Of a stretch of DNA of 64,000 nt, positions 2,142 through 51,452 are shown in pieces. The DNA is from Verrucomicrobia bacterium IMCC26134 (GTDB taxonomy: Bacteria; Verrucomicrobiota; Verrucomicrobiia; Opitutales; Opitutaceae). How positions within the stretch are numbered: the first letter of the stretch is position 1; each line of letters starts with the position of its first letter. Where the stretch lies: NCBI GenBank assembly GCA_000972765.1, contig CP011265.1:3345001-3409000 (forward strand), read 5' to 3'. The position numbers and the translations under genes were made by a program. The notes below the pieces were generated by a model. That model made no database searches, had not been told where the DNA came from, and worked only from the letters and a program-made list of their open reading frames with translations.

Positions 2142-2147
2142 TTTAAA

Positions 2148-2183
2148 GAAAAAACCCACCTCCATGAAATCATGGAGGTGGGT
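2148..2183 (-). terminator. Rho-independent terminator after the PEP-CTERM gene
   Basis: A perfect 13-bp stem (ACCCACCTCCATG at 2154-2166 against CATGGAGGTGGGT at 2171-2183) has a 4-nt loop. Read on the minus strand it is followed by six T. It ends transcription of the gene at 2227-2850 before the TPR gene starts. Confidence 0.85.
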
Positions 2184-2226
2184 CGATTTTTAAACTTTAT
2201 AACAAATAGGTATAAAGCTACTACTA

Positions 2227-2850
2227 TTAAGCAGTGACGCTGGACTTACGACGGCGGAGTAGCGCGACACCCAAGACTGCCATGCCACCGATTGCAGCAT
2301 AGGTGGAGGGCTCTGGAACTGCGGTAAAGTTGATTGTGTCAATACCAGCACCTTGAGCACCTGAGGCAAAGGTAAAGGAACCTTTAACAGCGGTGGTAGA
2401 AGCTGAGAAATAGTAAGTCAATCCGGAGGGCGTTCCAACCGTAAAGGAGGGAACGAGCCATGATGGATCAGTCAAAACAACTTCCTTCGTAGCTGAAACA
2501 TAGTTGAGACCAGCATCACGATTGGAGATGCAGATATACATCTGCGTTCCAGCTGTCACCGAATTGTTATTGTTCTGCGAGAGGTTCACCGCAAACTCAA
2601 CAGCACCGGGAGTAGTATCGACATAACCCGAGTTAGGGCTGCCGGCGCCTACTGATGTAATGTAGGGGGTGAAAACACTTCCTGAATACGTGCCGAAGAG
2701 GGCATCGATAGGTGTTGTGCTAGTGATCGTCGTTGCGCCATCTTTCATGACAAAGGCACTGTCATAGAAACCTACGCTGCCCGCTTTGGATGCGCTGGAG
2801 AGCGCGATTGACATGAGTGCGATACCGATTAGTTTTGTATTAGTATTCAT
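2227..2850 (-). CDS. PEP-CTERM sorting-domain protein
   Basis: A 207-aa exported protein. It has an N-terminal signal peptide (MNTNTKLIGIALMSIALSSA, cleaved around the following SKA-G). It ends in a classic PEP-CTERM sorting signal: VPEPSTYAAIGG, a short hydrophobic helix and the basic tail RRRKS. In this system exosortase cleaves at the PEP motif and the protein is delivered to the surface or the exopolysaccharide matrix. The mature region is small, rich in Ser/Thr/Gly and without a recognised domain. No exosortase gene is in the window. The gene lies downstream of another exported protein at 2889-3938 and has its own terminator. Confidence 0.85.
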   Translation of the reverse strand: MNTNTKLIGIALMSIALSSASKAGSVGFYDSAFVMKDGATTITSTTPIDALFGTYSGSVFTPYITSVGAGSPNSGYVDTTPGAVEFAVNLSQNNNNSVTAGTQMYICISNRDAGLNYVSATKEVVLTDPSWLVPSFTVGTPSGLTYYFSASTTAVKGSFTFASGAQGAGIDTINFTAVPEPSTYAAIGGMAVLGVALLRRRKSSVTA

Positions 2851-2888
2851 TTACTTGGGAATTTGAGATTGTTAAAAGATTTAAGGAA

Positions 2889-3938
2889 TTAGGGAGCAAC
2901 TGGCGAGATAACTGCATAGCTCGCGTCGGCCGCATTACGCTTGATCATGTAAGCCGAATTAAAGCCGAGGATAGATGAGGTAGTGACAGCTGTGGTCGTT
3001 CCAACTTGACGCCAGGTAGTTCCATCAGCGCGAAGATAATACGAGACAAATGCGTCGGTAGTAGGGTTATAGACCTGTAATTGATCAGCGTTACCCGCTA
3101 CGTTGTTACCGGTCCAGCCGAGCGCAGCCGTTCCACCTACAGCACTGGGAGATGCATCAACCGGATAACCTGAAGCTACAAACTTTAATCCTGGGGTCAA
3201 AGGTAACGCAAAGTTGTTGGTGCGGACTCCGCCCACAGCAACCAGCGTTGCTCCACTTGTAACCTTACGGAAAAGAACGCCAACCCCGGGCGCAATGACC
3301 GTGTTAGAAACGTTGGTAGCTGAACCAGACAAACGCCAGTTGACCAAATCAGCGCGAAGATAGTAAACGCTGAAGCTATCCGTGGCTGCGTTGTAGAACC
3401 AAACTTGATCTGCATTTGCTGCCGTGTTGCTACCAACCAGTGCCGTGCTGAAGAAGCTCTGTAATTGAGCCAAGGTGATGTGCTTGCGAAGCGCAAAAGT
3501 GGCACCTGATGCAACGTTGGTCGTAAGCGTAGTTGTGTTGTTAACACTAGCTGTGTTTAAAGTTACAACGCCATTCGCCGAAGTGATGGTGGCCGTGGTA
3601 TCAACATCAAAGCGATCTCCGACAATCGAAGCATCTCCAGCAGTGACTTCCAAGTAATAGGGTTGGCCTGCGGTCAAAAGAGCGCCGACGTTGCTTGAGC
3701 CACTCAGCGTAACGGTTGATGCGGTGTTGGAGGAGCAAGCTGAGGTGAGGAGGTTCGCATTGAGAACCGAAACGCCAAGATTATTGAGCCCAACGGTGAT
3801 GGTGTTCGTTACTGCACCAACAGGAGTGGTCGTGACCGTCTGAGCAGACACGGAGGAGGCCATTGCTGACAGCAAAACTAGGCCGAGGCTTAGTGAAGCG
3901 CCCAAGCGGGACGCACGCTTTGAAACTGATGTTTTCAT
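2889..3938 (-). CDS. TIGR02597-family exported protein
   Basis: A 349-aa secreted protein. It has a strong signal peptide (MKTSVSKRASRLGASLSLGL onwards, cleavage near SVSAQ). The mature part is low-charge and rich in Thr, Ser, Val and Asn, as in surface beta proteins. Two similar internal units are visible: NADQVWFYNAATDSFSVYYL about residue 175 and NADQLQVYNPTTDAFVSYYL about residue 285, each followed by RAD-x-x-x-WR. This matches the TIGR02597 family as I remember it, which is found mainly in Verrucomicrobia and Planctomycetes and has no known function. It lies 38 bp upstream of the PEP-CTERM gene and may be co-expressed with it. Confidence 0.7.
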   Translation of the reverse strand: MKTSVSKRASRLGASLSLGLVLLSAMASSVSAQTVTTTPVGAVTNTITVGLNNLGVSVLNANLLTSACSSNTASTVTLSGSSNVGALLTAGQPYYLEVTAGDASIVGDRFDVDTTATITSANGVVTLNTASVNNTTTLTTNVASGATFALRKHITLAQLQSFFSTALVGSNTAANADQVWFYNAATDSFSVYYLRADLVNWRLSGSATNVSNTVIAPGVGVLFRKVTSGATLVAVGGVRTNNFALPLTPGLKFVASGYPVDASPSAVGGTAALGWTGNNVAGNADQLQVYNPTTDAFVSYYLRADGTTWRQVGTTTAVTTSSILGFNSAYMIKRNAADASYAVISPVAP

Positions 3939-37522: not shown

Positions 37523-37608
37523 GCCCTCGTGGTGGAATGGTAGACACCAGAGACTTAAAATCTCTTGGCCGTAAGGCCGTGCCGGTTCGAGTCCGGCCGA
37601 GGGCACCA
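37523..37608 (+). tRNA. tRNA-Leu (UAA)
   Basis: An 86-nt class II tRNA. The acceptor stem GCCCTCG (37523-37529) pairs with CGAGGGC (37598-37604), followed by A and an encoded CCA. The anticodon loop CTTAAAA has TAA. A variable arm (TGGCCGTAAGGCCGT) and T arm (CCGGTTCGAGTCCGG) are clear. Its 3' 57 bases form the left attachment site of the island, so the gene stays whole after insertion. Confidence 0.97.
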
Positions 37609-37610
37609 CT
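37552..37610 (+). repeat. attL: left 59-bp direct repeat in tRNA-Leu
   Basis: Bases from the anticodon loop (GACTTAAAATC) to two bases past the CCA end are identical to 50796-50854. This is the usual scar of a tyrosine integrase that recombines at a tRNA 3' end. Confidence 0.93.
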
Positions 37611-37669
37611 ATGCAGCGCAAGTGTTTACGGGATTTTGAGCGTCGAGATTTTGGGTGGTGATTTTTTGC

Positions 37670-37696
37670 TGTGTCCCGTTTGTGTCCCACTTTTTC
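37670..37696 (+). repeat. Left-end tandem TGTGTCCC site
   Basis: TGTGTCCC occurs at 37670 and again at 37681 (11-bp period), followed by ACTTTTTC. A near-identical unit is at 50645-50672 near the right end in the same orientation. It may be an arm-type integrase binding site, or the 5' relic of an older integrase gene, because the minus-strand frame (KSGTQTGH) resembles the present integrase N-terminus (KSGTQAGH). Confidence 0.6.
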
Positions 37697-37840
37697 ACCT
37701 CTGCTTTTTCGGGCACGGTGCGCTCAACGCGAAACCAACGGAGCGCGAAACTGGAAAGATTTCAGATGCCAGTGCAGTCCAGATGCCGGTGGGGGTGGTA
37801 AACGTCTTTACGACTTCATCGCTGTTGAACACAGTAAGCC

Positions 37841-38491
37841 ATGCGCTCAACGGTTCTATCGGTTTTCATTTTTTCCGTTTTGCAACTTTTCGCGCTGGCA
37901 CAGACGCCCCCCGCTTCACCCGTTCGTAATTTCAAGGGGGTTGCCTTCGGCACGTCTGCGACGGTATTCGCCAAAGCTTACAAGCCGTCGGGAGAATGGG
38001 GGAACAATCGCCTCCCACCCGAAGCCTATTATGACCCAGGGGATGCCGCTATCCGCCTAACTCCACCGATTCCGCCGCTAACTAAACAACAAAGAGAGGC
38101 GACTTTGAATACCACTTACCCAACTCGACTCAGTGATGCGATAGGGGGGATTAGTTGTGAGGTGACTTTTATCTTTGCCGTTCAATCCCCGACGGACGTT
38201 AAGATTTTGACTAAAGGCATGAACCGGGAGGCAGCGAGTCGTGCTCTTTTTCGTGAAGTGCGGGGGAAATTTCAGCGAGGCGAATTCGCTCAAATGCTCC
38301 AAGGTGTAACCACCAAATACGGTGAACCGACAGTAGCCGACACGGAATTTGGCCGGTTTGAGTGGCGAGTGGAATCACTTCATATTTTATTGCGTTACAG
38401 AGATAGAGATTCGCCCAGCTATTCATCCATCAGCATCATAGATACGCTTGTCCCGTCTCTCGCCGGGAAGGTCGCAGCCAGTGATATGTGA
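37841..38491 (+). CDS. Exported protein of unknown function (island)
   Basis: A 216-aa protein with a signal peptide (MRSTVLSVFIFSVLQLFALA, then QTPPA). The mature part has a mixed alpha/beta look, with GVAFGTSATVFAKAYKPSGE at the start and FGRFEWRVESLHILLRYRDR near the end. I do not recognise a family. It is the first gene inside the left end of the island and points toward the cas genes. Two cysteines at most, no membrane segment, so probably periplasmic. Confidence 0.6.
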   Translation: MRSTVLSVFIFSVLQLFALAQTPPASPVRNFKGVAFGTSATVFAKAYKPSGEWGNNRLPPEAYYDPGDAAIRLTPPIPPLTKQQREATLNTTYPTRLSDAIGGISCEVTFIFAVQSPTDVKILTKGMNREAASRALFREVRGKFQRGEFAQMLQGVTTKYGEPTVADTEFGRFEWRVESLHILLRYRDRDSPSYSSISIIDTLVPSLAGKVAASDM

Positions 38492-38783
38492 AAACGCCCC
38501 GCCCCGGCGCGAAGTCTTCTTTGTCGAGCCGGGCAAGATCGGACTCGGCAGGGGCTATCATGGCGCGGCGGGTGTCCGCTTCGTAGTGCTTGGTAAGGGT
38601 TGCGCCTAGTGCCTCGCGCTTGGCGAAGTATTGAGGCAGCGGCAGGAAGGGGCGGTTTCGTCGGATCGCGACTTTCCACAGTTTAGACTGAGCAAGTTTG
38701 CGAGTTGTAGAGCCATTTTGGGTTCGGGTTTTGAGGAATAGTTTTTTTGAGAACGACGCGGTGGCGGTGATGAGTCGAAAAAC
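38436..38783 (-). pseudogene. Relict reading frame without a start codon
   Basis: On the minus strand a frame open from about 38783 to TGA 38436 has protein-like sequence, best in PLPQYFAKREALGATLTKHY and DLARLDKEDFAPGRG (about 38490-38660). It has no plausible start upstream of an internal ATG near 38560. Codon choice is like that of the surrounding genes. I do not recognise the family. It overlaps the 3' end of the exported-protein gene by about 55 bp. It looks like the tail of a gene truncated during assembly of the island. Confidence 0.45.
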
Positions 38784-38950
38784 TTAAACACCCCCCCGCC
38801 TCGGTTGAGTAGCCTTCCGGGGGTTTGGGTGGCATGGGGAAAGACGGCGGCACGGTTTGCCCGCAGGAGGCGGCGGAATCACTATGGAGAATCACGTCCA
38901 TGCACCCCTAATTGTTTGCATCGAGACTATGCTTAGATTGGCATCGGGTT

Positions 38951-41900
38951 ATGTCACAAGTAACCGGTTTACCCTTGGTTTTGGCATTTGATCTCGGCAA
39001 GGGCTCAATTGGTGAAGCCGTCCGACTTGGGAACGATTTTGTCCATGTGGCCTCATGGCTCATACCCCAAGATCTCGCGGCGCGCGGGCCATCTGCGAAA
39101 CCAGGCACGCCGGCTTCCCGCTATCGAGCTTGGCGCACCCGCGTTGCTCATCGCGAACGCGAAAACGCCCTGCGTCGCATTTGCGCCGACGCCGGTATCG
39201 AAGTGCTCGCGGCCAAACGCGTCGCCCGTGACGCCGCAGACAAGAAAAAATGGATCGTGGTCAGCAAGGCCGATGAACGCCTCACCCGCGAATTCCCCAA
39301 AAAAGGCGACTCCACTTGTTACAACTCCGCTCTGTTGCGCATCCAACTCTTGCGCGGCGTGAAGTTGGAGGGCTGGCAGGTGTTCAAGGCCCTGCATGCT
39401 GCCATTCAGCGGCGCGGTTACGATAACGCCGTCCCCTGGAAACATCGCGCGGTTCGTGATACGGAAACTGAAGAAGATGGCATCACCCAGCAACGCGCCG
39501 ACTCCTACTGCCTCGCCCTTGAGCAGATGGCTCCAAATAAACCCGAATGCCAACTGCCCTCCTATCTTGATGCGCATCGTCTCGGTCTTTGGGACGCGAG
39601 TCGTCCCGACGAATATATCCTGCGCATCGACCATCATGTCGCTCCCGCTCGCAATCGCGAGCATCCCGACAACACGCCCATCGTCGCCCCGCGTGAACTG
39701 GTCATCAAAGAAACCCGTGCGCTGCTCACTGCCGCAGCCAAGTTTTTCCCCAAGCTCGCCGGTCGGGAAGACGAGATTCTTTTCGGCCGTGGCGGCAAAG
39801 CCTACGCCTCCTACTTCGACGACGTTCGCCGCGCGCATAGCCTGCGCCTTGGCGGTGCCAATGATTGGGACGGCATCCTCGGCCAAAAAGTTCCACGATT
39901 CGACAATCGCATCATCGCCAAGTGCGCGCTCATCCCCCGGCTCAACGTCTGCAAAGCGACGACACGCAAGGACAAGACTGGCGCGATCATTTCAGAGTCA
40001 CTGCTGCCCTCCGAGGTCACGTTTCTTTTCAAGCTCAAGAACGTCCGCGTGCAGCGGCCTGACAAATCTATCACCGGGCTTAAGCCCGATGAAATTCGCA
40101 CGCTGTTTAATGATCCGAAACGCGAACCGGAAAAACTCAGCTACACGAAAAAGCAATGGAGCAAAGAGATAGCTCGGTTCGGCTGCGAAGCGGCTGCGGG
40201 TCATGAAGAAATTGCCGCGCCCAGCTTCGGCGGACGCAGCCGTTTCTGCCGTCCCGCGCTGGAGATTCTTAAAAAACTGATCCTTTCCGGGGAGAGTCCG
40301 GCCACTGCCCATTCCCGTGAACTTGCCGAGCGCGTCAAGGGCAACACCAACCCGCAGCAAGGGCTGGTCGTTTCGGACTTGGATTTCCTTTCGCCTGCCC
40401 GCATCGGCGAGACATGGGATGGCATTCATGTGGCCGACCAACAGCACGGCGCACTCCTCCGGCTCGCCGCCGAGCAAGGTCCGGAAGTCGCCATTCGCGC
40501 GCTTATCGGCAAGGTAAATAACCCGGTTGTTCGCCATCGTCTGGAGGCGTTCTGGGGTCGGCTGCGCGCCATCGAAGCCGATCTTAAGAAGCGCTTCGGA
40601 CGCGGTCCCGACGAGATCGCTATCGAATTCATCCGCACCGATTTCATGGGGCCAAAGGCCAAACTGGCTCTCGCCAAGTTCCAAAGCGAACGCGCCGAAG
40701 CTCGCGAGGACGCGCGCGCTCAAGTCGGCAAAATCGGAGCCGATGGCCGCGCTTCGCCGCTCAAATATGAACTATGGAAAGCCCAGGGTGGCATCTGCCT
40801 TTTTGTCGGCGAGAGTCTCGCGCCCACCGACATCGAATCACTGGAAATTGAGCACATCGTGCCGCGCTCACAAGGTGGTTCGGATGCGTTCATAAACTAC
40901 GTCGTGACCACGAAGGCCACGAACAAACTCAAAGACAACCGCACCCCCTATGCTTGGTTTGAAGCAAACGGGTTCACTGGCTGGGATGCCTACGTGAAAC
41001 GCGTCGAAGCCTGCGCTACCGCCCTGCGTAACAAAAAGGTGCGTCTACTCACCGCTCCCGACGCCATCGAATTAGTCGAACGTTACACCGCACTTGCTGA
41101 AACCGCCTACATCGCCCGTCTCGCGCAAACTGTGGCCGCGTTGCATTTTGGCTGGCCGATCAACAGCCAGCCCGGCGAGCGCCGCATCACTATCGTCAAC
41201 GGCGGCCTCACGGCTCGCGTGCGCCGAAACTACCGCCTTAACTCGCTGCTCAATCCCTGCCCCACTGGAAAAGACCAGAAAGAATGGGAGGAAGACGCAG
41301 ACGTGGAGAAGAACCGCAAGGACGACCGTCACCACGCCCTCGATGCGATGGTCATCTCCTTCATTCCTGCCTGGACCCGCGATCCGAAGAAAGAAAAGTT
41401 CTTCCGCCTGCCGGATGGCGTGACACCGGAGACGTTCCAAGAACGGTTGGAGGAAGTCTTGCCGCGACAGCTTCACTACGAACGGTCAGAACTTGAAGCG
41501 ACGGCATTCGGACAACGCACGTTGGGAGGAAAACTATACGGCGTGGCTCGTGTGGACTTCTGTAATCTGGTGGTGAAGGTCGCGTTAAACGGCAACCGTT
41601 CGCTAAACATCAAGCCTGATGGATCAGGCGAAGCGGACACTATAGTCGATCAGGCTATTCGCCGCGATGTTCAGGCGTTCATAGATCAAAACCGCGCCAC
41701 GATTACTTTGGCTATTTGGGATGCATGGGTGAGTAGCTACCATAGGGGAGGATCGAATGGCCCACTGGTCAAAAAAGTCTTAGTCACCATCACCAATCCC
41801 GACTCGCTGGAGGAATACGCAGATCTTGCCAAAGATCAAAGCGGTCAGCTTCGCAGAGGGAAAAAGCACAAGGGCTACTGGATTTTGCGCATTCTAAGTC

Positions 41901-42211
41901 CCACCAAAAAAGACCCAACCAAAACGACCCTGCAAGTGAGACCTATTTATGCACATGCCAATCCTCATGCGCTTAAAGCAGAAATTGGGGAAGATCACGG
42001 ATGTGAGATCATACTCGAACTTGAATCAGGCTGTTTAGTTCAAATCGACAAGCCGATAGCCCACGCGAAAACGCCGTTAGCCGCAGGAATCTACAAATTG
42101 AACTCTGTGTGGACGCAGGGGAATGTCGTCGTCTCAAGCCAGTCGGGGGTGACTTCCGCCCCTATTGGTCTGGCCAAGTTCATCGAAGCCGGCCTGCGCC
42201 GCCTAAAGTAA
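38951..42211 (+). CDS. cas9: Cas9 endonuclease, type II-C, divergent
   Basis: A 1,086-aa RNA-guided nuclease. RuvC-I is VLAFDLGKGSIGEAV (Asp14), with Glu where most Cas9 have Trp. The bridge-helix region (RYRAWRTRVAHRERENALRR) and AIQRRGY follow. RuvC-II is PDEIAIEF (Glu559). HNH is LEIEHIVPRSQGGSDAF (His635, Asn658 in ATNK). RuvC-III is DDRHHALDAMVISF (His794/795, Asp798). All catalytic residues are therefore present. The size fits compact II-C enzymes. I start at ATG 38951; a TTG at 38912 would add 13 residues. cas1 starts 4 bp after the stop. With no csn2 or cas4, the locus is II-C by gene content. Confidence 0.95.
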   Translation: MSQVTGLPLVLAFDLGKGSIGEAVRLGNDFVHVASWLIPQDLAARGPSAKPGTPASRYRAWRTRVAHRERENALRRICADAGIEVLAAKRVARDAADKKKWIVVSKADERLTREFPKKGDSTCYNSALLRIQLLRGVKLEGWQVFKALHAAIQRRGYDNAVPWKHRAVRDTETEEDGITQQRADSYCLALEQMAPNKPECQLPSYLDAHRLGLWDASRPDEYILRIDHHVAPARNREHPDNTPIVAPRELVIKETRALLTAAAKFFPKLAGREDEILFGRGGKAYASYFDDVRRAHSLRLGGANDWDGILGQKVPRFDNRIIAKCALIPRLNVCKATTRKDKTGAIISESLLPSEVTFLFKLKNVRVQRPDKSITGLKPDEIRTLFNDPKREPEKLSYTKKQWSKEIARFGCEAAAGHEEIAAPSFGGRSRFCRPALEILKKLILSGESPATAHSRELAERVKGNTNPQQGLVVSDLDFLSPARIGETWDGIHVADQQHGALLRLAAEQGPEVAIRALIGKVNNPVVRHRLEAFWGRLRAIEADLKKRFGRGPDEIAIEFIRTDFMGPKAKLALAKFQSERAEAREDARAQVGKIGADGRASPLKYELWKAQGGICLFVGESLAPTDIESLEIEHIVPRSQGGSDAFINYVVTTKATNKLKDNRTPYAWFEANGFTGWDAYVKRVEACATALRNKKVRLLTAPDAIELVERYTALAETAYIARLAQTVAALHFGWPINSQPGERRITIVNGGLTARVRRNYRLNSLLNPCPTGKDQKEWEEDADVEKNRKDDRHHALDAMVISFIPAWTRDPKKEKFFRLPDGVTPETFQERLEEVLPRQLHYERSELEATAFGQRTLGGKLYGVARVDFCNLVVKVALNGNRSLNIKPDGSGEADTIVDQAIRRDVQAFIDQNRATITLAIWDAWVSSYHRGGSNGPLVKKVLVTITNPDSLEEYADLAKDQSGQLRRGKKHKGYWILRILSPTKKDPTKTTLQVRPIYAHANPHALKAEIGEDHGCEIILELESGCLVQIDKPIAHAKTPLAAGIYKLNSVWTQGNVVVSSQSGVTSAPIGLAKFIEAGLRRLK

Positions 42212-42215
42212 TGCT

Positions 42216-43118
42216 ATGAGCCACCACATCCTGCATGTTCTCACCCCGTTCTGCACGTTGGCCAAGGAGCGTGGTTTTATTGTCTGCCGTCAGCAAAATC
42301 ATCAGGAACGACGCCTGCCATATGATGACGTCCGCGCCGTCATTATCGCCGCGCGCGGCGTCAACCTGACGTCGTCTTTTATGACCGCGCTACTTGAAAG
42401 CAACGCGATCATCCTTCACTGCGATGAGAGTTACCAACCGTGCGGCATCACCGCGCCGCTTTCTCGGGTGACCGACCGTGAAGCGTTTCTTCGCCAAGCA
42501 TCGCGCCCCAAGCGCCTCAACGAAAACCTCTGGCAGACTTTGCTGCGGGGAAAGACGGTCAACCAACAACACGTCCTAACCCGCCAGGAACACCCAAGTC
42601 CGCACCTCGCCCGCGCGCTTGATCTGGATTTGTTCGACGAGGGCAACTGCGCCAAGCGTTACTGGCAGCTCTACTTTCCCGCCATCGGCTGGGTTTCCAC
42701 CAAACGCGAGCGGCGCGAAGATTCGCCGCCGAACCAGATGCTCAATTACGGATACGCTGTGCTCTCGGCGCTGTGCCATCGCAGTTTGGTTCTCTACGGT
42801 CTGTCACCGCAGTTGGGTGTAAAACACACCACCCGTTACAAGAGCGATCCCTTGGTTTACGATCTAATGGAGCCCTTCCGCCCCGTGGTAGATTTATTGC
42901 TGGCCGAGTTCATGGTGGGCGAGGACGTGAGCTTTCGTTCTTGGGCACGCAAGATTGGTGGCGATTTGCGTGAACGTCGGGTGCAACACGAACGCTACAC
43001 CTTGAAGTTGATGGACGCGATTGACGCCTCGGCCTGCTCGCTTGCACGCAGCTATGCAGAAAACTCGGCGAAACCCTTCTGGGTTCCCGAACTCCCCACC
43101 CTCACTAAGGCTGCGTGA
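42216..43118 (+). CDS. cas1: CRISPR integrase Cas1 (type II)
   Basis: A 300-aa integrase subunit that, with Cas2, inserts new spacers. It has the type II N-terminal domain (FIVCRQQNHQERRLPYDDVR) and the C-terminal catalytic helix bundle, with His in GVKHTTRYKSDPLVYDLMEP and acidic residues in YDLMEPFRPVVDLLLAEFMV. Size is typical for type II. The gene follows cas9 by 4 bp and overlaps cas2 (GTGA), so the three form one operon. Confidence 0.95.
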   Translation: MSHHILHVLTPFCTLAKERGFIVCRQQNHQERRLPYDDVRAVIIAARGVNLTSSFMTALLESNAIILHCDESYQPCGITAPLSRVTDREAFLRQASRPKRLNENLWQTLLRGKTVNQQHVLTRQEHPSPHLARALDLDLFDEGNCAKRYWQLYFPAIGWVSTKRERREDSPPNQMLNYGYAVLSALCHRSLVLYGLSPQLGVKHTTRYKSDPLVYDLMEPFRPVVDLLLAEFMVGEDVSFRSWARKIGGDLRERRVQHERYTLKLMDAIDASACSLARSYAENSAKPFWVPELPTLTKAA

Positions 43119-43462
43119 GATCAAGCGCCTTCAGTATGGGCTGGGTTCTCGTCATGTTCGATCTTCCTGTCGGCTCGGAGGAACAACGGCACACGGCGAC
43201 CCATTTTCGCAAGGGGTTGCTTGATGCTGGCTATCTGATGATTCAGTTTTCGGTTTATGCGCGCCCCTGCGTGAGTTTTGACAGCCTGGAAAGTCACACG
43301 AAGCTTCTGGAGAAAACGGTTCCGTCGGCCGGTAACGTGCGAGTGATGTTTTTTACCGATCAGCAATGGGCGCGTGCCTTTACCGTGACCGGTCCCAATT
43401 ACAACCAAGGCAATCGCGTGATTGATCCGACGATGCCCCAACAGGTCGAGTTCTGGGAATAG
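43115..43462 (+). CDS. cas2: CRISPR-associated Cas2
   Basis: A 115-aa ferredoxin-fold partner of Cas1. It has the VLVMFDLPVGSEEQRHTATH strand with the conserved Asp, then GYLMIQFSVYARPC and VRVMFFTDQQWARAFTV. I keep the GTG at 43115, which overlaps the cas1 stop by 4 bp; ATG 43136 is a possible alternative that retains the whole fold. It is convergent with the predicted tracrRNA, whose terminator begins right at the cas2 stop. Confidence 0.93.
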   Translation: MRSSAFSMGWVLVMFDLPVGSEEQRHTATHFRKGLLDAGYLMIQFSVYARPCVSFDSLESHTKLLEKTVPSAGNVRVMFFTDQQWARAFTVTGPNYNQGNRVIDPTMPQQVEFWE

Positions 43463-43512
43463 AAAAAGGAAGCGCCGACCAAGACGTGCGAGGCAGAGAT
43501 CTGGTCGGCGCT
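43462..43512 (-). terminator. tracrRNA terminator hairpin
   Basis: AGCGCCGACCA (43471-43481) and TGGTCGGCGCT (43502-43512) form an 11-bp stem with a 20-nt loop. On the minus strand it is followed by TCCTTTTTC. No T run follows on the plus strand, so it serves the minus-strand RNA only. Confidence 0.85.
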
Positions 43513-43560
43513 GTATCAGTTAAGACTTCCCCCCCCTGAGAGGTCGGACTTAAGAGAACT
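43462..43560 (-). ncRNA. Predicted tracrRNA
   Basis: The minus strand between cas2 and the array holds a perfect 26-nt anti-repeat (43549-43524) that pairs with repeat positions 6-31, including all eight G. Beyond it TT faces TC as a 2x2 internal loop, then AAC pairs with the GTT at the repeat start. This gives the standard lower stem, bulge and upper stem. The tail is only about 50 nt and has one clear hairpin, which is also the terminator. The 5' end is unknown. The orientation agrees with crRNA read from the minus strand (repeat starting GTTTC). Confidence 0.85.
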
Positions 43561-43594
43561 AAACTGCTTAAAAAGAACTTGGTCGGCAAGACCT
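43551..43594. promoter_or_regulatory. Candidate leader / tracrRNA promoter region
   Basis: A 44-bp AT-rich spacer between the anti-repeat and the first repeat. It abuts the end of the array with the most uniform repeats, so it may be the leader for spacer insertion. The terminal repeat ends, on the minus strand, in CATAAT, a 5-of-6 match to a -10 box, which would place a start within this spacer and could drive the tracrRNA. A small stem (CTTG-CAAG) followed by TTCTTTTT could instead end crRNA transcripts. Confidence 0.4.
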
Positions 43595-45522
43595 ATTATG
43601 TCCGACCTCTCAGGGGGGGGAAGTCGAAACAACATTGCGCATCACGGTTACGTCATTAGGATTATGTCCGACCTCTCAGGGGGGGAAGTCGAAACACTAG
43701 TTTTTGTGAGTTGATCGACCACGTTATTATGTCCGACCTCTCAGGGGGGGGAAGTCGAAACAACTCGTAAACACCAGTCTCGGCGTCGTAAATTATGTCC
43801 GACCTCTCAGGGGGGGGAAGTCGAAACTTTGTCCACGTGATTGCTTCGCGCAAAGCTATTATGTCCGACCTCTCAGGGGGGGGAAGTCGAAACCTCTCAT
43901 CCGAGCGGGTGGATCTGCTAGGAATTATGTCCGACCTCTCAGGGGGGGGAAGTCGAAACAGCGCAGCGTGCTCAAAGACTTGGAAGGTGATTATGTCCGA
44001 CCTCTCAGGGGGGGGAAGTCGAAACCCATTAGGTGTGACGGTGTTTGCCTTGATGATTATGTCCGACCTCTCAGGGGGGGGAAGTCGAAACCAGATTCGC
44101 CCACGATGCGTCTGAACACCCATTATGTCCGACCTCTCAGGGGGGGGAAGTCGAAACACTATAGCACAATTAGACATGGCTTGCCTGATTATGTCCGACC
44201 TCTCAGGGGGGGGAAGTCGAAACTCGCCTCCATTTTGGCCGCCGTTGCCGCTTATTATGTCCGACCTCTCAGGGGGGGGAAGTCGAAACCTCAACTCTGG
44301 CCGTGATGCCACCGAGTTTATTATGTCCGACCTCTCAGGGGGGGGAAGTCGAAACAAACAATTAAAATGACCAAAACCCAACCAGATTATGTCCGACCTC
44401 TCAGGGGGGGGAAGTCGAAACCGTCACCCGTGTTTATGCGTGCGGCGGGCATTATGTCCGACCTCTCAGGGGGGGGGAAGTCGAAACTGGCTCGCTTGTT
44501 ACAGGGTCGTGCGCGCCATTATGTCCGACCTCTCAGGGGGGGGAAGTCGAAACACGTGACACGTTGCGGACACGTCACGTTCAATTATGTCCGACCTCTC
44601 AGGGGGGGGAAGTCGAAACATAGGCAGCGCACTCGGCTGCGGCTGCGGCATTATGTCCGACCTCTCAGGGGGGGGAAGTCGAAACTGCAATTACGGTGAG
44701 TTTCTCGGCACATATATTATGTCCGACCTCTCAGGGGGGGGAAGTCGAAACCAGTCCGTAACACGGAAAAACACGGCTAAGATTATGTCCGACCTCTCAG
44801 GGGGGGGAAGTCGAAACTTGGTTAATTCCATCTCCAACGGTTATTTGATTATGTCCGACCTCTCAGGGGGGGGGGAAGTCGAAACTCGCGATCGGCGAGG
44901 AGCTGGGCATCGGCGATTATGTCCGACCTCTCAGGGGGGGGAAGTCGAAACACGCCATCGAGTATGTCGTCGGCGAGGTATATTATGTCCGACCTCTCAG
45001 GGGGGGGGAAGTCGAAACCGTGATGATGCTGGTGCCGACCTCTGGCGATTATGTCCGACCTCTCAGGGGGGGGGAGTCGAAACCACTGAGAAGCTGCTCC
45101 CCTGGCAGGAGACATTATGTCCGACCTCTCAGGGGGGGGAAGTCGAAACATGCTCCAAGCGAGCCGTTTTCAAATATCAATTATGTCCGACCTCTCAGGG
45201 GGGGAAGTCGAAACTATCGCCGACAATGCGCCACTGGCGGGCAGATTATGTCCGACCTCTCAGGGGGGGGAAGTCGAAACGATGGTGAATAATCTTTGAA
45301 CTTAGGTTCTATTATGTCCGACCTCTCAGGGGGGGGGAAGTCGAAACAACGTGTCAAGTTCCTGCTCTCGTAGGATATTATGTCCGACCTCTAAGGGGGG
45401 GAAGTCGAAACAGCGGTGGTGGGAACTTAAATGGTGGGGGCATTATGTCCGACCTCTCAGGGGGGGGAAGTCGAAACAGGCTTTTGTCAGCACCGTTCCA
45501 GTATCGCATTATGTCCGACCTC
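43595..45522 (-). CRISPR. CRISPR array, 29 intact repeats plus one remnant
   Basis: The plus-strand consensus is 36 bp: ATTATGTCCGACCTCTCA, eight G, AAGTCGAAAC. There are 29 intact copies and a final copy with only its first 15 bases (45508-45522). Of 29 spacers, 26 are 30 bp and 3 are 29 bp. G runs are 8 in 21 repeats; the others have 7 (43661, 45180, 45377), 9 (44451, 44982, 45048, 45311) or 10 (44848). The repeat at 45377 also has C to A, and the one at 45048 lost an A. The crRNA strand is taken as minus because type II repeats begin GTT and the anti-repeat is on that strand. Confidence 0.98.
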
Positions 45523-45685
45523 CGCAGGGGTGCGGAGGGTGCGGAGGGTCACTTTTCCCAAACCGTTTCCCTATACTATATTTTCCCCTGTTTTCTTCCT
45601 TCACCTATAAATTGAAGATTTTGACCCTCCGCACCCTCCGCAGGGGGTGGGCTCGGCTTGTGCGGAGGAGGGTGCGGAGGGTCGG
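45508..45685. other. Origin-like iteron region at the array end
   Basis: TGCGGAGGG units occur in three groups: two tandem at 45531-45549, two inverted at 45624-45642, and two more, one interrupted, at 45661-45682. The first two groups form a perfect 21-bp inverted repeat (45531-45551 with 45622-45642) around a 70-bp AT-rich stretch. Iterons around an AT-rich unwinding zone beside a primase-helicase gene suggest a replication origin of the island. The last CRISPR repeat runs straight into this region. Confidence 0.5.
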
Positions 45686-45707
45686 TTTTTGCGGTTGGTC
45701 TCCCTGT

Positions 45708-48323
45708 TCAAAGCAAATCCTCCCGCTCAACCGTCCAACAAGCGCGGGCGCGGTTGGCGTCTCGTCCGCCTTCGCGTCGCGTCGTCTTTCTCAACCGGCC
45801 GCGCCACTCCGCCGACTCGGCGAGTTTTGCCAGCATCCGGCCAAGGTGTTTCGGGCCGGTGCAAATCCGGTGCCGAGCGAGCCCTCCCGGCGTCGAGACG
45901 TCCAAGGCGGTGTAAAGGTCAACCGTCGGCAGTTCAACGTGGGCGACCTCGTCCCCCCATCCTTCAATCCAGCTTTCCAAGGCGTCACAAAAGGGCCGCA
46001 GGGGGTCGCCCTCGCGCAGCAAGTCGAGAACGGCGGGGTGGTGCCACTCCGTCACCCCGAACCGCCCCTTGCTGAGTGCGGGCGGAATCGCGAACGAGTC
46101 CACAGCGGCGAGGAACGCCGGGAGATCGGCACGCAATGCAGCCGCGAAGCCCTCCCGCGCCGCGTCGTCGTCGGCGTTGAAGAAAGGGCGGGGCGGTAAG
46201 TAGCATTTAAGATAAATGATTTTGTCCCCGAAAGCCCCGTCCAAGGTGGGGAGGTTGCTTGCGCTTTCGGCGTCGTCATTTGCCGAGAGGGTGACGCGCC
46301 AAACGGGGCGGAAGGTGAGGGCGTCGCGCCCCTTTGGGTGCAATGGATAGCCGGGCGAGGCGACAACTCTCTTCAGTTCGTCCCGTAGGGTGGCACGCTG
46401 TGCGCCGGTGAGGTCAAGCGACTTGTCCGAAAGCGCGAGGTGTTCCGCCCCCCAGAGGTCGGCGTTGAAGGTCGTTTGACCCGTGAAGAAAAGCCCAGGG
46501 TCAACCTCCCGCCCGCCGAGAGCGGGGGTGATAAGCTGCGATTGAAGCAGACTTTTGCCACAGTCGGGCGGGCCAACCAGGGCGAGGACTTGGCCGGGGC
46601 GGTGCTCGGTTGGGTTTGCCAACGCGACGCGAGCGACCCGCAGCCAAGAAAAGAAAATGGCGCGTTGAGTCTCCGCGTGGGGGTCGCCTGCCGAGCGTCC
46701 GAAAAGATCGGCGACAAAGGAAGCAATGCGCCCCCACTCGCCCGCAGCGGGTGCGATGGGTGACGCGCCACGGGTGACAAGCACGCGAAGTCCGTTTTCA
46801 TGGTGAAGCCCGACAGGGCGACCACAAAGCGGGCCGGAGTAGTCAACGCGGTTGCGGTGTTGGAGTTCGTGAAGCCGCGAATCGCACGGGGCGGGGTCGC
46901 CGGCCTTGGACAAGCCCAGCGTGTTAAGGTGAAGCCGGGCGTCCTCACGGCACAGCTTGCCAAACGCGCCGTGCCGTTCGCGTCGCCAATAGGCGGAGCC
47001 GTCGAAATACAAGGGAGCCGCTCCCGTCTCGCCGTCGAGTTCGGCGAGGGCGTGCCCCGCCTCCCGCTCGCGCTCGGCGTCGGCGTGCGCCCGGACGGCG
47101 GCGCGGAAGGTGACTTTTGCATAGCCGAGCATATCACGGGCGACTTTCTCCACGTCGGCGAAGGCGAAGGGATCAGCGTCGAGAGCAGCGGCGAGATGGA
47201 CAAGCCGCGCCCGTGCCTCGTCCCGGTGGGTGGGGTCAAGCCCACGCCGAGCAGCGTCGAGATTGCTTGTGAGCAGGTGAGCAGCCAATGCGGGGCGGGG
47301 CTTGCTCGGCTCGGCGTCGAGAGCGGAAACCCATGCGGCGGCGAGTCCCGCCCCCCACGTCTCGGCGGGGAACCACTCGCGAGCGTCCGCCCCCGCTTTG
47401 ATTGAGGCGACCGCGTCGGGGGCGTGTTGCTTGGCGATGAAGTAAAGCGAGCCGGTGCCGACGCGCCGCAGCCGGTGCCGGGCTTTCTCGCGATACTCGC
47501 CGGCCCGTTCCTCCGGGCTCCATTTTGCGAGGGCTTCCGTCCCCGCCTCAATGCCGAGAGCGTCCCAAACGGCGGAAGCAATTTTGAGCCATTCCCCGTA
47601 ATCCGGGCGGGGAGGTATGCAGCCGAGCAACGCAGCGACGGTCTCGGCGTCGGGCTTGCCCCCGCCCCCCTGCCGGGTCTCGGCTTCGTCCAAGGTGTCG
47701 GCGGTGTCCGCAGCATGGGGGGCGGCGGTGCCTCCCGTGCCGTTGACCGTGTCCGAAAGCGGCAGCGGGTGGGCGTCTCCATTCACGAACGCCGACGGGT
47801 CAAACGAGACGAAGCACAGCCGAGCAACGTCTTTGCCGCTCTCGTCCAGGAACGCGCCACAGTCGGGGGCGAGGCGGAGAACGTGCGCCTTCGCGTCGGC
47901 GAAGGTCTCGGCATGGGTGCGACCCGGTGCCGAGCGGTAAACGATTTTAAGCCCCGTCCCCGTAGGGGAGAGGAAGGCGGCGACGGTGTGCTTGTCGCCT
48001 TCAATGGCGGAGCGGAGCGGCGCGAGCCGGTCGCCGAGGTGGTCAAGGTCAACGACGATAAGCCCCGACGGGGTCAAAAGACCTTGCTCGGCGCGGTGGG
48101 TAAACGTCCCCGCAGCGGTGAATCCGAGGAGTTTTTTCTTGAGAGGGCGGGCGGCTTTGCTTCCGTCGGCGTAAGCACGGCGGACGCGTTCAATGGCGGC
48201 GCGGTGTGTGCCGGTCTTTATCTCGTCCAAAATAGCCGAGAGCGGGCGGGCGTTAGTCGGCGCGGTGGCGGTCGCGCTCGCGAAATAGGAAACGGAAGTC
48301 TGAAGGGTGTCGGGTGCCTTCAT
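45708..48323 (-). CDS. Primase-helicase of the island (BT4734/PriCT-2/DUF5906)
   Basis: An 871-aa replication protein. The N-terminal primase-polymerase-like domain has the metal pair VVDLDHLGD (Asp92, Asp94) and LSPTGTGLKIVYR. A PriCT-2 linker follows (PDYGEWLKIASAVWDALGIE, about residues 240-300). The C-terminal superfamily 3 helicase-like ATPase has Walker A LVGPPDCGKSLLQS (about residue 583) and RVTLSANDDAES as sensor. Such proteins start replication of plasmids, satellites and integrated elements. Its ATG overlaps the stop of the AlpA-like gene (ATGA). Confidence 0.85.
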   Translation of the reverse strand: MKAPDTLQTSVSYFASATATAPTNARPLSAILDEIKTGTHRAAIERVRRAYADGSKAARPLKKKLLGFTAAGTFTHRAEQGLLTPSGLIVVDLDHLGDRLAPLRSAIEGDKHTVAAFLSPTGTGLKIVYRSAPGRTHAETFADAKAHVLRLAPDCGAFLDESGKDVARLCFVSFDPSAFVNGDAHPLPLSDTVNGTGGTAAPHAADTADTLDEAETRQGGGGKPDAETVAALLGCIPPRPDYGEWLKIASAVWDALGIEAGTEALAKWSPEERAGEYREKARHRLRRVGTGSLYFIAKQHAPDAVASIKAGADAREWFPAETWGAGLAAAWVSALDAEPSKPRPALAAHLLTSNLDAARRGLDPTHRDEARARLVHLAAALDADPFAFADVEKVARDMLGYAKVTFRAAVRAHADAEREREAGHALAELDGETGAAPLYFDGSAYWRRERHGAFGKLCREDARLHLNTLGLSKAGDPAPCDSRLHELQHRNRVDYSGPLCGRPVGLHHENGLRVLVTRGASPIAPAAGEWGRIASFVADLFGRSAGDPHAETQRAIFFSWLRVARVALANPTEHRPGQVLALVGPPDCGKSLLQSQLITPALGGREVDPGLFFTGQTTFNADLWGAEHLALSDKSLDLTGAQRATLRDELKRVVASPGYPLHPKGRDALTFRPVWRVTLSANDDAESASNLPTLDGAFGDKIIYLKCYLPPRPFFNADDDAAREGFAAALRADLPAFLAAVDSFAIPPALSKGRFGVTEWHHPAVLDLLREGDPLRPFCDALESWIEGWGDEVAHVELPTVDLYTALDVSTPGGLARHRICTGPKHLGRMLAKLAESAEWRGRLRKTTRREGGRDANRARACWTVEREDLL

Positions 48324-48571
48324 TTCGCGACCCTCCCGGCCACAAGAGCGCGAACGCTCGATTCAGAATAGCGAATGACCCGTTCGTTTATGCGGACGGC
48401 TCGAATCTTTCCGGCACGGGCGAGCCGCAAGGCGGCGTGTCCTGTTTTGCAAGCGTTGCCGGTGAGTTCGTAAACGCCTCTGAAGGTCAAAAGCCTATCC
48501 GCTTGGGCGGTGGCGGTGGTGTCCTCATTTGAGCCGGAGGCGGCTTGTTTTTGCGTAAGGTTTGGTTTCAT
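48320..48571 (-). CDS. AlpA/excisionase-like DNA-binding protein
   Basis: An 83-aa protein with a MerR-like winged helix-turn-helix: RLLTFRGVYELTGNACKTGH, RLARAGKIRAVRINERVIRY and SESSVRALVAG. Small proteins of this kind act as excisionases or activators in integrated elements. It lies between the 247-aa gene and the primase gene, overlapping the latter by 4 bp, so it is expressed with replication and integration functions and may control excision. Confidence 0.75.
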   Translation of the reverse strand: MKPNLTQKQAASGSNEDTTATAQADRLLTFRGVYELTGNACKTGHAALRLARAGKIRAVRINERVIRYSESSVRALVAGRVAK

Positions 48572-48621
48572 TGCGTCCCCTAGCGAACGGAAGCGCGCAG
48601 AAAGAGGGACGGGCGGTTAAA

Positions 48622-49365
48622 TCATTTAATGTCCGCTTTTCTCGGCGGTCTCCCGCGCCGCAGGTTCACGCCAAACTTTTCCACCAAACGGCCAAGGGTT
48701 CGTTCGTCGGGTGCGCCCCCTTTGCCTAGTTTGTCCCGTGCGGGCCATGCCGCGCCGTCGAGAATGGCCGCACAGGTGAAGCGATGCGTCGGCGGTTTGC
48801 TCCGCACGAAGTCGAGAAAAGCGGCTTCAGTCTCCGACCGGGCAACCGGCCAAGCTCCGCCCCGTTCTCGCTTCACCACGTCGGCGAAGTATTCGAGGAA
48901 GGCGGGGTTCCCGCTTTGGATTGCAGCGAGCAGCCGAGGGGCGGCGAGGTCGCGCAGCATGGCGAGGGCGCGAGCCTCGGCACGGGCGGCGGCGGGCGAG
49001 CCCTTCGCGGGCGGAGCGGTGCGCGGGGGCGGAGCGTCCCCCCACGCGGCGGCGGGCGGTTGGTTTAACGTGAGCCAAACTTGTTCAACGATGCCAGCCG
49101 CAGCGGTGCCGGTCTCGGCAACGTGTGCCGAGCCCTTGCCGTGCCGTGCTCGGCTCGCGTTTTCGTCCAAGGTCGCGCCCTCCCTCGCCTCGCTTGTCCG
49201 GGCTCCCGTAGGGCGACCGCGCCCGCTCGGCTTCAATAGGGCTTTAATCTTTTTGAGCCGAGCGGAAGCGGTCGCCCGTTCGTTTTCGTCCCCGCCCTTT
49301 GCGGCGGCTTCGAGATCGGCCAAGGCGGAAGCAAGGGGCGACCGTGTCGCGTGTTTCGTCTTCAT
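48622..49365 (-). CDS. Unknown island protein in the integrase operon
   Basis: A 247-aa protein, Ala- and Arg-rich. The first 60 residues are likely coiled coil (LASALADLEAAAKGGDENER, ATASARLKKIKALL); a disordered Gly/Pro-rich middle follows; the C-terminal 90 residues (FLEYFADVVKRERGGAWPVA to LVEKFGVNLRRGRPP) look folded and basic, possibly DNA-binding. I do not recognise the family. ATG 49365 overlaps the integrase stop (ATGA), which decides the start; a longer frame upstream overlaps the integrase. Confidence 0.7.
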   Translation of the reverse strand: MKTKHATRSPLASALADLEAAAKGGDENERATASARLKKIKALLKPSGRGRPTGARTSEAREGATLDENASRARHGKGSAHVAETGTAAAGIVEQVWLTLNQPPAAAWGDAPPPRTAPPAKGSPAAARAEARALAMLRDLAAPRLLAAIQSGNPAFLEYFADVVKRERGGAWPVARSETEAAFLDFVRSKPPTHRFTCAAILDGAAWPARDKLGKGGAPDERTLGRLVEKFGVNLRRGRPPRKADIK

Positions 49366-50714
49366 TTTGCGCCCTTCTTTTTGGCGGCGAGATCCACCAC
49401 GGCGGAGCCGGTCGAGACGTAGCTTGCGGCGGTGGTGGCAACGGTCGAGTGCCCTAGGTGGCGGCGGGCGGCTTCGAGACCGGCGACAGCGTAAACGAAA
49501 CTGCCCGACAGCTTGCGGAGGGCGTGCAAAGGCGTGATGTCCGCCATGCCTTGCGTTTTGAGCCATGCGGTGAGCGGTGCCCACGCCTCGGCGCGGTATT
49601 CGTAACCGTAAGCGGCAAGCCTCGGTGCGGATCCGTTGAGCACGAAGGCGGCGGCGGGCTCGGCTTTGCGGCGAGCCTTCAACCGCTTCACCACGTCGGG
49701 CGGCAAGGGCACGGTGCGGAAAGACTCTTTGCTTTTCGGCCGGAAGTGCTCGGTGACGTCGATTCGCACGGTTCCGGCGGCGAGGTCAACGTGTGCCCAC
49801 GGCAGGGCGTCGGCTTCACCACGGCGGAGACCGGCGCAAAGTAGCAGGTCGAAGGCGGTGCGGGTGTCGGGGTCGAGACCGGCGGCGGCGGCATAGAGTT
49901 TGCGCGGATCCAGCTCGCAAACAAAGCGGCGGGTGGTGGCGGTGGCGGCGATGCCTTCAAACGGCAACGGTGAGGGCAAGGTGAGCGTCTTTCCTACCTC
50001 GGCAACGATTGCCTTGGAGAACAGGGCGCGGGCGTTGCGGAGGTGACTTGCCAGCGTGTGCGCACGGTGGTCTTTCGCCACCTCTCCGCCCTCGGCACGG
50101 GCGGCGTCGAGATCCTTTTTCTGCCAAGCCCTAACGTCGGCGGGGGTGATTTGGTCGAGGCGCACGGCGTCAACTTTCGCCGCCCACGCGAGGCGGTCGG
50201 CTCGCTTGTCGGACTTCGAGGCAATGCCGCGCACGCCTGCAATCACTCGGCGCAAGCAGGTCTGATACTTCGACAGGACAACAGGGCGCACGGTCGCAAC
50301 CGCCTTTGCGGCGGCGACGTAGTCGGCGAAGGTGCAAGCCTTGTCCGCCTTCGCTTCCGCCTTGGGGTGAAACTCGGCAAGTGCGACGTCGAGACCTTTG
50401 GACTTCACGTTTAACCAGAGTGCGCGGGCTTTACCGGCGGCGTCTGCTTTGTTGGCGGTGTCGAGGCAAACCCAGGTATCGCGCCCCTCGTCCCGAAAAC
50501 GGACGTAAAGCTCGGCGGTCGGCACGCCGCGAACGACACGCGGGGAGACCTTGTTTTTCCAATACTCAATGGACGATTTGGCGGCGCGGTCGGGCTCTCT
50601 TTCGGTCTTCGCAAGGTCGGCGGGGAAACGGGACACAACGGAAGTGTGTCCCGCTTGTGTCCCACTTTTTTCGTTCTCAACGTGTTTTTTGGCTTCGCTT
50701 GTGTTCGTTCTCAT
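49362..50714 (-). CDS. int: Tyrosine integrase of the island
   Basis: A 450-aa site-specific recombinase. The catalytic domain has FDLLLCAGLRRGEADALPWA (box I Arg), a Lys strand near SFRTVPLPPDVVKRLKARRK, LHALRKLSGSFVYAV (HxxR) and ARRHLGHSTVATTAASYVST (His and the Tyr nucleophile). The N-terminal half has a SAM-like core-binding domain. ATG 50714 is chosen over a TTG at 50765. The gene starts 82 bp from attR and reads inward, the standard layout for tRNA-targeting integrases. It leads the operon of four genes. Confidence 0.93.
   Translation of the reverse strand: MRTNTSEAKKHVENEKSGTQAGHTSVVSRFPADLAKTEREPDRAAKSSIEYWKNKVSPRVVRGVPTAELYVRFRDEGRDTWVCLDTANKADAAGKARALWLNVKSKGLDVALAEFHPKAEAKADKACTFADYVAAAKAVATVRPVVLSKYQTCLRRVIAGVRGIASKSDKRADRLAWAAKVDAVRLDQITPADVRAWQKKDLDAARAEGGEVAKDHRAHTLASHLRNARALFSKAIVAEVGKTLTLPSPLPFEGIAATATTRRFVCELDPRKLYAAAAGLDPDTRTAFDLLLCAGLRRGEADALPWAHVDLAAGTVRIDVTEHFRPKSKESFRTVPLPPDVVKRLKARRKAEPAAAFVLNGSAPRLAAYGYEYRAEAWAPLTAWLKTQGMADITPLHALRKLSGSFVYAVAGLEAARRHLGHSTVATTAASYVSTGSAVVDLAAKKKGAK
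50645..50672 (+). repeat. Right-end tandem TGTGTCCC site
   Basis: TGTGTCCC at 50645 and 50656, then ACTTTTTTC; the whole unit differs from 37670-37696 by one base and one extra T. It lies in the first codons of the integrase gene, about 130 bp inside attR. Confidence 0.6.
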
Positions 50715-50795
50715 GTTTGGTAAGTTGCTTGTAAGTAAGTTAAAAGTAAATGCTTTAGCGCACAATTACGAAAACTTGCGAATAGACAATGTAAC

Positions 50796-50854
50796 GACTT
50801 AAAATCTCTTGGCCGTAAGGCCGTGCCGGTTCGAGTCCGGCCGAGGGCACCACT
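50796..50854 (+). repeat. attR: right 59-bp direct repeat (tRNA-Leu 3' copy)
   Basis: Identical to 37552-37610. It is a tRNA 3' fragment only; no acceptor 5' half or D arm lies before it, so it is not a functional tRNA gene. Confidence 0.93.
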
Positions 50855-51074: not shown

Positions 51075-51452
51075 ATGGACCACGTTCCGATAAGCGTTTT
51101 TCTGGCCCCTCTTTTTCTACTATTTGAGGGATTGCAGCTGGTTGCTGCGGAAAAATTACTCGGGATCAAGCAGATCGAATCGGGTTTAGTGGAACGCGAT
51201 AAAGTCCCCGGTGAGGCCGTCGCAGTCTTTTGGTCACTCGGTATCATCGCCGAGGCCGCCTGGTGTCTTTGGCTGCTCGCCAACGATATCACACGTGTTC
51301 ACGCCGGGTGCGTGCTACTGATCAGCCTATTTGGTTTTTCCATGCGCAATAGCTGCCGGCTCAAGTGGGTGCTAGTAATCATGACCATCGAGGGCGCTTG
51401 CCGGATGGGGCTGATGGTCTCGATGCTGGGAAGTGCGTGGAGAAACCTATAA
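51075..51452 (+). CDS. Small integral membrane protein of unknown function
   Basis: A 125-aa protein with about four hydrophobic helices (VFLAPLFLLFEGLQLVAAEK, AVAVFWSLGIIAEAAWCLWL, AGCVLLISLFGFSMR, LVIMTIEGACRMGLMVSMLG). No family is recognised. It is the first chromosomal gene after the island and lies 49 bp before the amidase gene on the same strand, so the two may be linked. Confidence 0.65.
   Translation: MDHVPISVFLAPLFLLFEGLQLVAAEKLLGIKQIESGLVERDKVPGEAVAVFWSLGIIAEAAWCLWLLANDITRVHAGCVLLISLFGFSMRNSCRLKWVLVIMTIEGACRMGLMVSMLGSAWRNL

Follow-up and report, generated by a model that had tools for sequence, protein, structure and literature searches.

Phage satellites of the P4 type, phage-inducible chromosomal islands (PICIs) and tRNA genomic islands are integrated at a tRNA gene and combine a tyrosine integrase, an AlpA-like gene and a primase with an absence of virion genes. 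Here, we describe a 13.2-kb element of Verrucomicrobia bacterium IMCC26134 that differs from them in its cargo, a complete CRISPR-Cas9 (clustered regularly interspaced short palindromic repeats and associated Cas9) system. It lies in a stretch of 64,000 nt, hereafter the window (contig CP011265.1, positions 3,345,001 to 3,409,000), to which coordinates refer unless they are given as genome positions. We consider it probable that this is an integrative, non-conjugative and presumably replicating element that carries a complete, phage-directed Cas9d system.

The presence of CRISPR-Cas9 on an integrative element is already published. As described in PMC8743540, CampyICE1 of Campylobacter likewise unites a Cas9-type CRISPR system, an integrative element and spacers against other mobile DNA. 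However, CampyICE1 is conjugative and 70–129 kb long, whereas no conjugation genes were recognized in our 13-kb element; its system is a degenerate II-C type with Cas9 as the sole Cas protein, whereas Cas9d is accompanied here by cas1 and cas2; and its spacers are directed mostly against plasmids, whereas those of the window match a prophage. More generally, mobile DNA has acquired CRISPR systems that serve in counter-defence or in conflicts between elements (PMC11656645); the cases considered from that paper are phages, plasmids and transposons, and the word ‘satellite’ is absent from its main text. Our searches of the open-licence literature brought up no description of a Cas9d system on an integrative element or of a CRISPR-bearing satellite. 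The element is an unusually small and well-delimited case of CRISPR on mobile DNA, with a clean anatomy and a moderate degree of surprise.

The sections of the Cas9d literature that deal with adaptation genes disagree: subtype II-D is described as Cas9d with a shared adaptation module of cas1, cas2 and cas4 (PMC12669027), adaptation genes are reported in only a few cases (PMC9755519), and Cas9d systems lacking them are described (PMC11706934). The system of the window resembles II-D in its NCBIfam effector family, in having a trans-activating CRISPR RNA (tracrRNA), and in a deep branch that sets it apart from the canonical Cas9s of its order. It differs in the missing cas4 (a gene of the module as outlined in PMC12669027) and in its longer effector, of up to 1099 aa against the 600–1050 aa given for Cas9d/Cas9c2 in the size ranges at hand.

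Results

The only tRNA gene that ARAGORN found in the window is tRNA-Leu(UAA). Its last 57 bases and two more form a perfect 59-bp direct repeat, the attachment (att) core, in which identity extends over exactly 59 bp with no leftward extension; over 64 bp, 63 positions (98%) are identical. The repeat unit measures 13,244 bp (Table 1). In the bacterium's own genome, a single contig of 4,001 kb, the 64-mer occurs at 98–100% identity in these two places only, and the third match (80%, genome position 2453163) lies inside an 86-nt match of tRNA length. An initial annotation, made from the sequence alone, had proposed a 13.2-kb element framed by this repeat, and its coordinates are confirmed.

The same annotation had suggested a search for an empty tRNA-Leu(UAA) site in related genomes, and we found one in four genomes of the same genus. 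In G223, the alignment of the window's left flank (72%) runs through nadD into tRNA-Leu; identity at the core spans 61 bp, and immediately after it comes the right flank (67%). Judged from coordinates, the first right-flank gene (51075–51452) begins 53 bp past the tRNA in G223 and 90, 88 and 102 bp past it in G230, G227 and G225, compared with 220 bp past the right core here. Loci of 3 kb around the tRNA were covered for 12 of 14 same-genus relatives; in the eight that do not show the junction, the right-flank gene was not detected within the 3 kb, for which another tRNA-Leu, a rearrangement or short contigs are possible reasons. The combination that characterizes a tRNA-integrating mobile element, namely an integrase, att repeats and an empty site in relatives, is present. 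Genome G236 (L097–L099) shows a tRNA-Leu(UAA) followed by two more 3′-end copies, each beside a related integrase, which looks like tandem islands at one tRNA-Leu(UAA) site.

Both ends of the element carry matching short sequences. The octamer TGTGTCCC occurs five times in the 64 kb, where about two copies would be expected at random, and all five lie just inside the element ends. The left end has those at 37670 and 37681; the right end has those at 50630 (inverted), 50645 and 50656, within the integrase reading frame. We compared octamer pairs at both ends of eight elements by script. Seven of the eight have an exact pair 11 bp apart at the integrase-side end, starting 128–135 bp from the core, reading GGGACACA in the window and G391, GGGTACAC in G423, CCGGACAC in G261 and G373, GGGGACAC in G245 and GTGGCGGA in G013; the other end of those seven has the same letters inverted, 11 bp apart, with at most 1–2 changes. 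Because the letters vary from element to element but match at the two ends of each, the octamers are probable arm-type sites of the integrase. Across this element family (L300–L313 and the window), end octamers that differ by element, match between ends and overlap the integrase frame were a recurrent observation.

The whole module of cas9, cas1, cas2, tracrRNA and array lies inside the element and on one side of it, as first annotated. The RuvC and HNH catalytic motifs of type II effectors can be read in the Cas9 sequence. This protein scores 936.9 bits on the NCBIfam model NF049971 ‘Cas9d’ (cut-off 375) and 173.5 bits on the general model TIGR01865. The Cas9d model is matched by all eight members of alignment A1, and nine further Cas9s of this order, taken as canonical without typing of their loci, score 102–183 bits on it. 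One branch (SH-aLRT 99) splits the Cas9d set from these nine in a quick LG+G4 tree that carries long-branch and composition warnings and contains no published II-D reference; 10 of the 38 relatives chosen for it were dropped, as the motif filter found no full frame. In a profile search of the PDB, the best 60 of 80 matches were to other Cas9s, almost all of them across the RuvC/HNH core, and they do not settle the subtype.

There is no csn2 or cas4 beside cas9, cas1 and cas2, which is the II-C layout, and Cas1 matches TIGR03639 cas1_NMENI above its cut-off. No Cas4 family was found among the island open reading frames (ORFs) scanned, so the II-D adaptation module, as far as PMC12669027 sets it out, is not present in full. 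The type II-C label of the initial annotation, therefore, fits the layout and is not supported for the effector. Since the effector matches Cas9d and no cas4 was found, the system is, on sequence grounds, best read as Cas9d in a II-C-like layout and not as canonical II-C.

Within the order, 35 of 223 genomes match this Cas9 at E 0.001, nine of them strongly besides its own (E ≤5e-86). The nearest relatives are in a Puniceicoccales metagenome-assembled genome (Cas9 53–56%, Cas1 76%) and in Candidatus Didemnitutus of the Opitutaceae (Cas9 54–56%, Cas1 79%); in the latter, the module adjoins ordinary genes such as one for a sodium:alanine symporter. Among 80 relative loci (kept of 86), whose flanks are often short, profiles recognized an integrase in one and a primase in none, and thus the mobile setting has so far been seen only here. 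Separately, the IMG/VR record IMGVR_UViG_3300037465_000360 (L200) has at 527–3808 a Cas9d-family gene with 37% identity to the window Cas9 and, in the first 13.8 of 28.3 kb, neither cas1/cas2 nor a visible array. Its neighbours are Mu-like phage genes (Mu F-like, tail completion, MuA- and MuB-like), and both of its catalytic motifs, RuvC and HNH, seem intact, in contrast to the RuvC-dead phage Cas9 described in PMC12669027.

Past cas2, the minus strand carries an antirepeat and a hairpin, followed by a T tract whose end lies next to the cas2 stop codon. With a score of 29, the antirepeat exceeds shuffled sequences (6.8±1.2), so that by sequence the region has the mark of a tracrRNA. The comparison used 16 of 21 relatives, as L123, L129, L132, L160 and L176 had no readable array past cas2; of 17 loci, 16 beat all 200 of their own shuffles and one (L135) ties with the best. 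In the alignment of the 17 loci, 15 of the 16 predicted hairpin pairs have pair-keeping changes on both sides. The T tract fixes the strand of the tracrRNA and, therefore, by implication that of the CRISPR RNAs (crRNAs). Array and tracrRNA would be read on the minus strand, giving crRNAs with GTTTCGACTTCC after the spacer and a tracrRNA that ends at a terminator-like hairpin next to cas2, near 43463.

The array comprises 29 repeats of 35–38 nt and 29 spacers of 29–30 nt. Twenty-one copies of the repeat have a G run of 8 nt, whereas four have one of 9, three one of 7 and one a run of 10; seven of these eight odd copies lie within repeats 14–29, the cas2-distal half of the array. As the odd repeats cluster there and a truncated repeat stands at the primase end, that end is probably the old one. 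The variation may reflect slippage that could alter crRNA–tracrRNA pairing.

We joined the 29 spacers and searched them against the bacterium's own genome, where two clear protospacer places were found outside the array, for spacers 25 and 21. Both lie in one prophage (genome 3956747–3991140, ~34 kb; L234, L235, L237), which is framed by 25-bp copies of a tRNA-Pro 3′ end and has genes for a terminase (9.2e-60), head protease, portal and integrase; the frame targeted by spacer 25 has a weak tail-fibre match. IMG/VR holds the same terminase at 100%, probably from the same prophage. The prophage makes up 0.9% of the genome, so by simple arithmetic two random matches would both fall within it in about one case in 14,000. 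Counted from the spacer 3′ end, the mismatches are at 6 nt in spacer 25 and at 6–7 nt in spacer 21. That end is presumed to be the side of the protospacer-adjacent motif (PAM), as in type II systems, and mismatches so placed might allow the prophage to persist beside an active Cas9. The 3′ flanks of the protospacers, CAGCAACC and CGACAATG, are too few for naming a PAM.

The initial annotation had proposed comparing the spacers with phages, plasmids and similar islands, and clear protospacers came to light solely in the resident prophage. No protospacers were found in phage records, and none that were clear in the sister elements examined; 14 Sinorhizobium plasmid records (E 0.01–0.5) were rejected as chance-level matches. 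The next candidate in the own genome (3195158, E 4.5e-4) has 8 mismatches to spacer 21 and was likewise rejected. A search of 250 family genomes with the array produced numerous short matches, the better of them mainly over spacer 20. Eighteen such loci (L216–L233), compared over the full 30 nt, have 3–10 mismatches and were taken as matches of a GC-rich spacer and not as protospacers, although two with 3 mismatches (G251 and G265) may be genuine. In a further search of 250 family genomes, with at most two candidates per genome scored, three borderline matches were found outside the own genome, G251 and G265 recurring at E 2.0e-4 and 2.8e-4. In 2.80 Mb, the real spacers gave 14 matches at 3–6 mismatches and reversed spacers gave none; those at ≤5 mismatches were all in loci chosen for such matches.

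The integrase and primase-helicase lie on one side of the element, and both assignments of the initial annotation are supported by Pfam and PHROGs matches, the DUF5906 match of the primase-helicase (23.6 bits) being below its cut-off of 27.6. The small gene annotated as AlpA-like is also present, but its 83-aa product has no match in Pfam, PHROGs or NCBIfam, and we presume the name from size and place. The origin-like DNA is real as sequence: 7 of the 12 copies of TGCGGAGG and all four of GTGCGGAGGGT in the window fall within 45519–45682, around an AT-rich stretch. In agreement with the reported lack of virion and conjugation genes, the eight island ORFs scanned, shorter ones being outside the scan, include no capsid, terminase, relaxase or conjugation family, and hence none of the relaxase or conjugation genes that define integrative conjugative or mobilizable elements. 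No capsid-remodelling gene or packaging site was recognized either. The orf216 gene has a relative in element G423:C78 (28.6% identity, 9e-26), which ties it to the element family.

In counts over genomes drawn from larger groups, the integrase was found in 30 of 250 genomes of the bacterial family, presumably the Opitutaceae (E 1e-50, best 69%) and the primase in 22 (E 1e-20, best 63%), the own genome included in each. Fourteen integrase/primase places were read. Nine have an integrase with an AlpA-like gene, four of these nine also a primase, and six are framed by repeats of 48–79 bp, one end of each carrying a tRNA (Met, Met, Asn, His, Gln and Gly); none of the 14 has a match to cas9, cas1 or cas2 at 1e-4. 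The expectation that this integrase/primase backbone would occur with other cargo is, thus, borne out at other tRNAs of the family. At tRNA-Leu(UAA) itself, G114 has a different island between the gene and a second 3′-end copy, with a related integrase at the far end and genes that by eye suggest sugar use, one of them with a glycosidase match. In G013 (L088/L262, G013:C20), the integrase–orf320–AlpA-like trio belongs to a 15-kb element that is bounded by a tRNA-Asn repeat and also has genes for major head, tape-measure and tail proteins and, among the ORFs scanned, no terminase or portal match; this could be either a small capsid-bearing satellite or a decayed prophage. Scans of viral contigs with the primase and integrase gave no relative.

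Table 1. Features of the element and its insertion site (window coordinates)
Feature	Position	Strand	Remarks
tRNA-Leu(UAA), target gene	37523..37608	+	Kept whole through the element's copy of the 3′ part
att core, left copy, 59 bp	37552..37610	+	Exact repeat
Paired octamer TGTGTCCC, 11 bp apart	37670..37688	+	Probable integrase arm site, left end
orf216, probable secreted protein	37841..38491	+	N-terminus judged by eye; relative in G423:C78
cas9 (Cas9d family)	38912..42211	+	Start may lie further in; RuvC and HNH motifs present
cas1	42216..43118	+	Profile matches
cas2	43115..43462	+	Profile matches
tracrRNA region	43463..43594	-	Antirepeat 43519-43553, hairpin 43472-43511, T tract beside cas2 stop
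CRISPR array, 29 repeats	43595..45477	-	Strand inferred from tracrRNA
Spacer 21	44952..44981	-	2 mismatches to resident prophage, genome 3968044, E 1.7e-6
Spacer 25	45215..45244	-	1 mismatch to resident prophage, genome 3960483, E 4.7e-7
Truncated terminal repeat	45508..45522	-	Runs directly into GC-rich repeats
Iteron-like repeats (TGCGGAGG x7) flanking AT-rich stretch	45519..45682	.	Possible replication origin
Primase-polymerase/helicase	45708..48323	-	BT4734-like N domain PF08800 1e-19; weak DUF5906
Small AlpA-like gene	48320..48571	-	Relatives beside nine related integrases
orf320, function unassigned	48622..49584	-	Overlaps integrase gene; relative beside integrase in G013
Tyrosine integrase	49362..50765	-	PF00589 2e-9, phrog_1 6.9e-28
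Octamers 50630 (inverted), 50645, 50656	50629..50664	.	Probable integrase arm site, right end
att core, right copy, 59 bp	50796..50854	+	Exact repeat

Discussion

We favour an integrative, non-conjugative element because its 59-bp repeat occurs only twice in the genome and its site is empty in four same-genus genomes, because octamer pairs recur in seven of eight elements and the backbone in sister elements, and because the cas module is complete, with intact catalytic motifs, a covarying tracrRNA hairpin and two spacers that match one prophage. Integration would be the work of the tyrosine integrase, joining the 59-bp core to the tRNA-Leu(UAA) 3′ end with the arm sites at both ends as guides, and the small AlpA-like neighbour protein is the probable director of excision. 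Once excised, the circle is probably replicated by the primase-helicase from the adjoining repeat cluster. With no virion or transfer genes recognized, the element would move within cell lines or with a helper, a lifestyle that may be satellite-like. If the module is expressed, Cas1 and Cas2 would add spacers and Cas9 would cut matching DNA. The two identifiable spacers are directed at a temperate phage of the host.

Several observations weigh against this reading. A close counterpart of the entire element did not turn up, and no origin motif is shared with 19 relatives of the primase. Composition does not separate the island (G+C 0.594) from its flanks (0.609 and 0.600), and the G114 island at the same tRNA has octamer pairs at neither end. 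As to immunity, no target was found for 27 of the 29 spacers, the resident prophage coexists with the CRISPR system, and two matches within one host do not show activity.

Some of these observations would also be expected of an island that arrived by integration, is now immobile and serves simply as host defence, an explanation we regard as unlikely but the most serious of the alternatives. The undemonstrated circle, the lack of a close copy elsewhere and the resemblance of the spacers to ordinary anti-phage memory speak for such a settled island; however, the integrase, the primase and both ends look intact, and the site is empty in four relatives. The initial annotation had suggested a role in competition between mobile elements as well as in host defence; clear protospacers found only in a prophage fit both host defence and conflict between element and phage.

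Rather more doubtful is a CRISPR-armed phage satellite, a replicating element packaged by a helper that uses Cas9 against competing temperate phages or relatives of the helper. Its size and gene set, the trio shared with the head- and tail-bearing element of G013 and the temperate phage as recorded target would suit a satellite, but no packaging site, capsid-remodelling gene or terminase gene was recognized and no helper was identified. With similarly slight confidence, we entertain a satellite-class element, too small for transfer or virion genes, that turns its own adaptive immunity on co-resident temperate phages, the truncated repeat at 45508 being the scar of array capture beside the origin. 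If that were true, immune memory would travel horizontally with the element. The initial annotation had named an unrelated tRNA duplication as the observation that would overturn its proposal, and although partial tRNA copies are common in these genomes, the empty sites, the matching end structures and an integrase beside the core as in sister elements make an unrelated tRNA fragment, with a cas locus outside any mobile unit, a very improbable account of the repeat.

Overall, the integrative element described here offers a compact, fully bounded natural Cas9 system with adaptation genes in 13 kb. That a Cas9d-family effector stands beside an adaptation module without cas4 in the Verrucomicrobiota bears on how subtype II-D is drawn, and the family of small elements to which the island belongs represents a natural set for studying the joint change of integrases and their arm sites. 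Proof that the element excises, replicates or rides a helper phage would make the finding far more surprising. The element allows a direct test of who benefits from CRISPR-Cas on non-conjugative elements: the host, the element itself or both.

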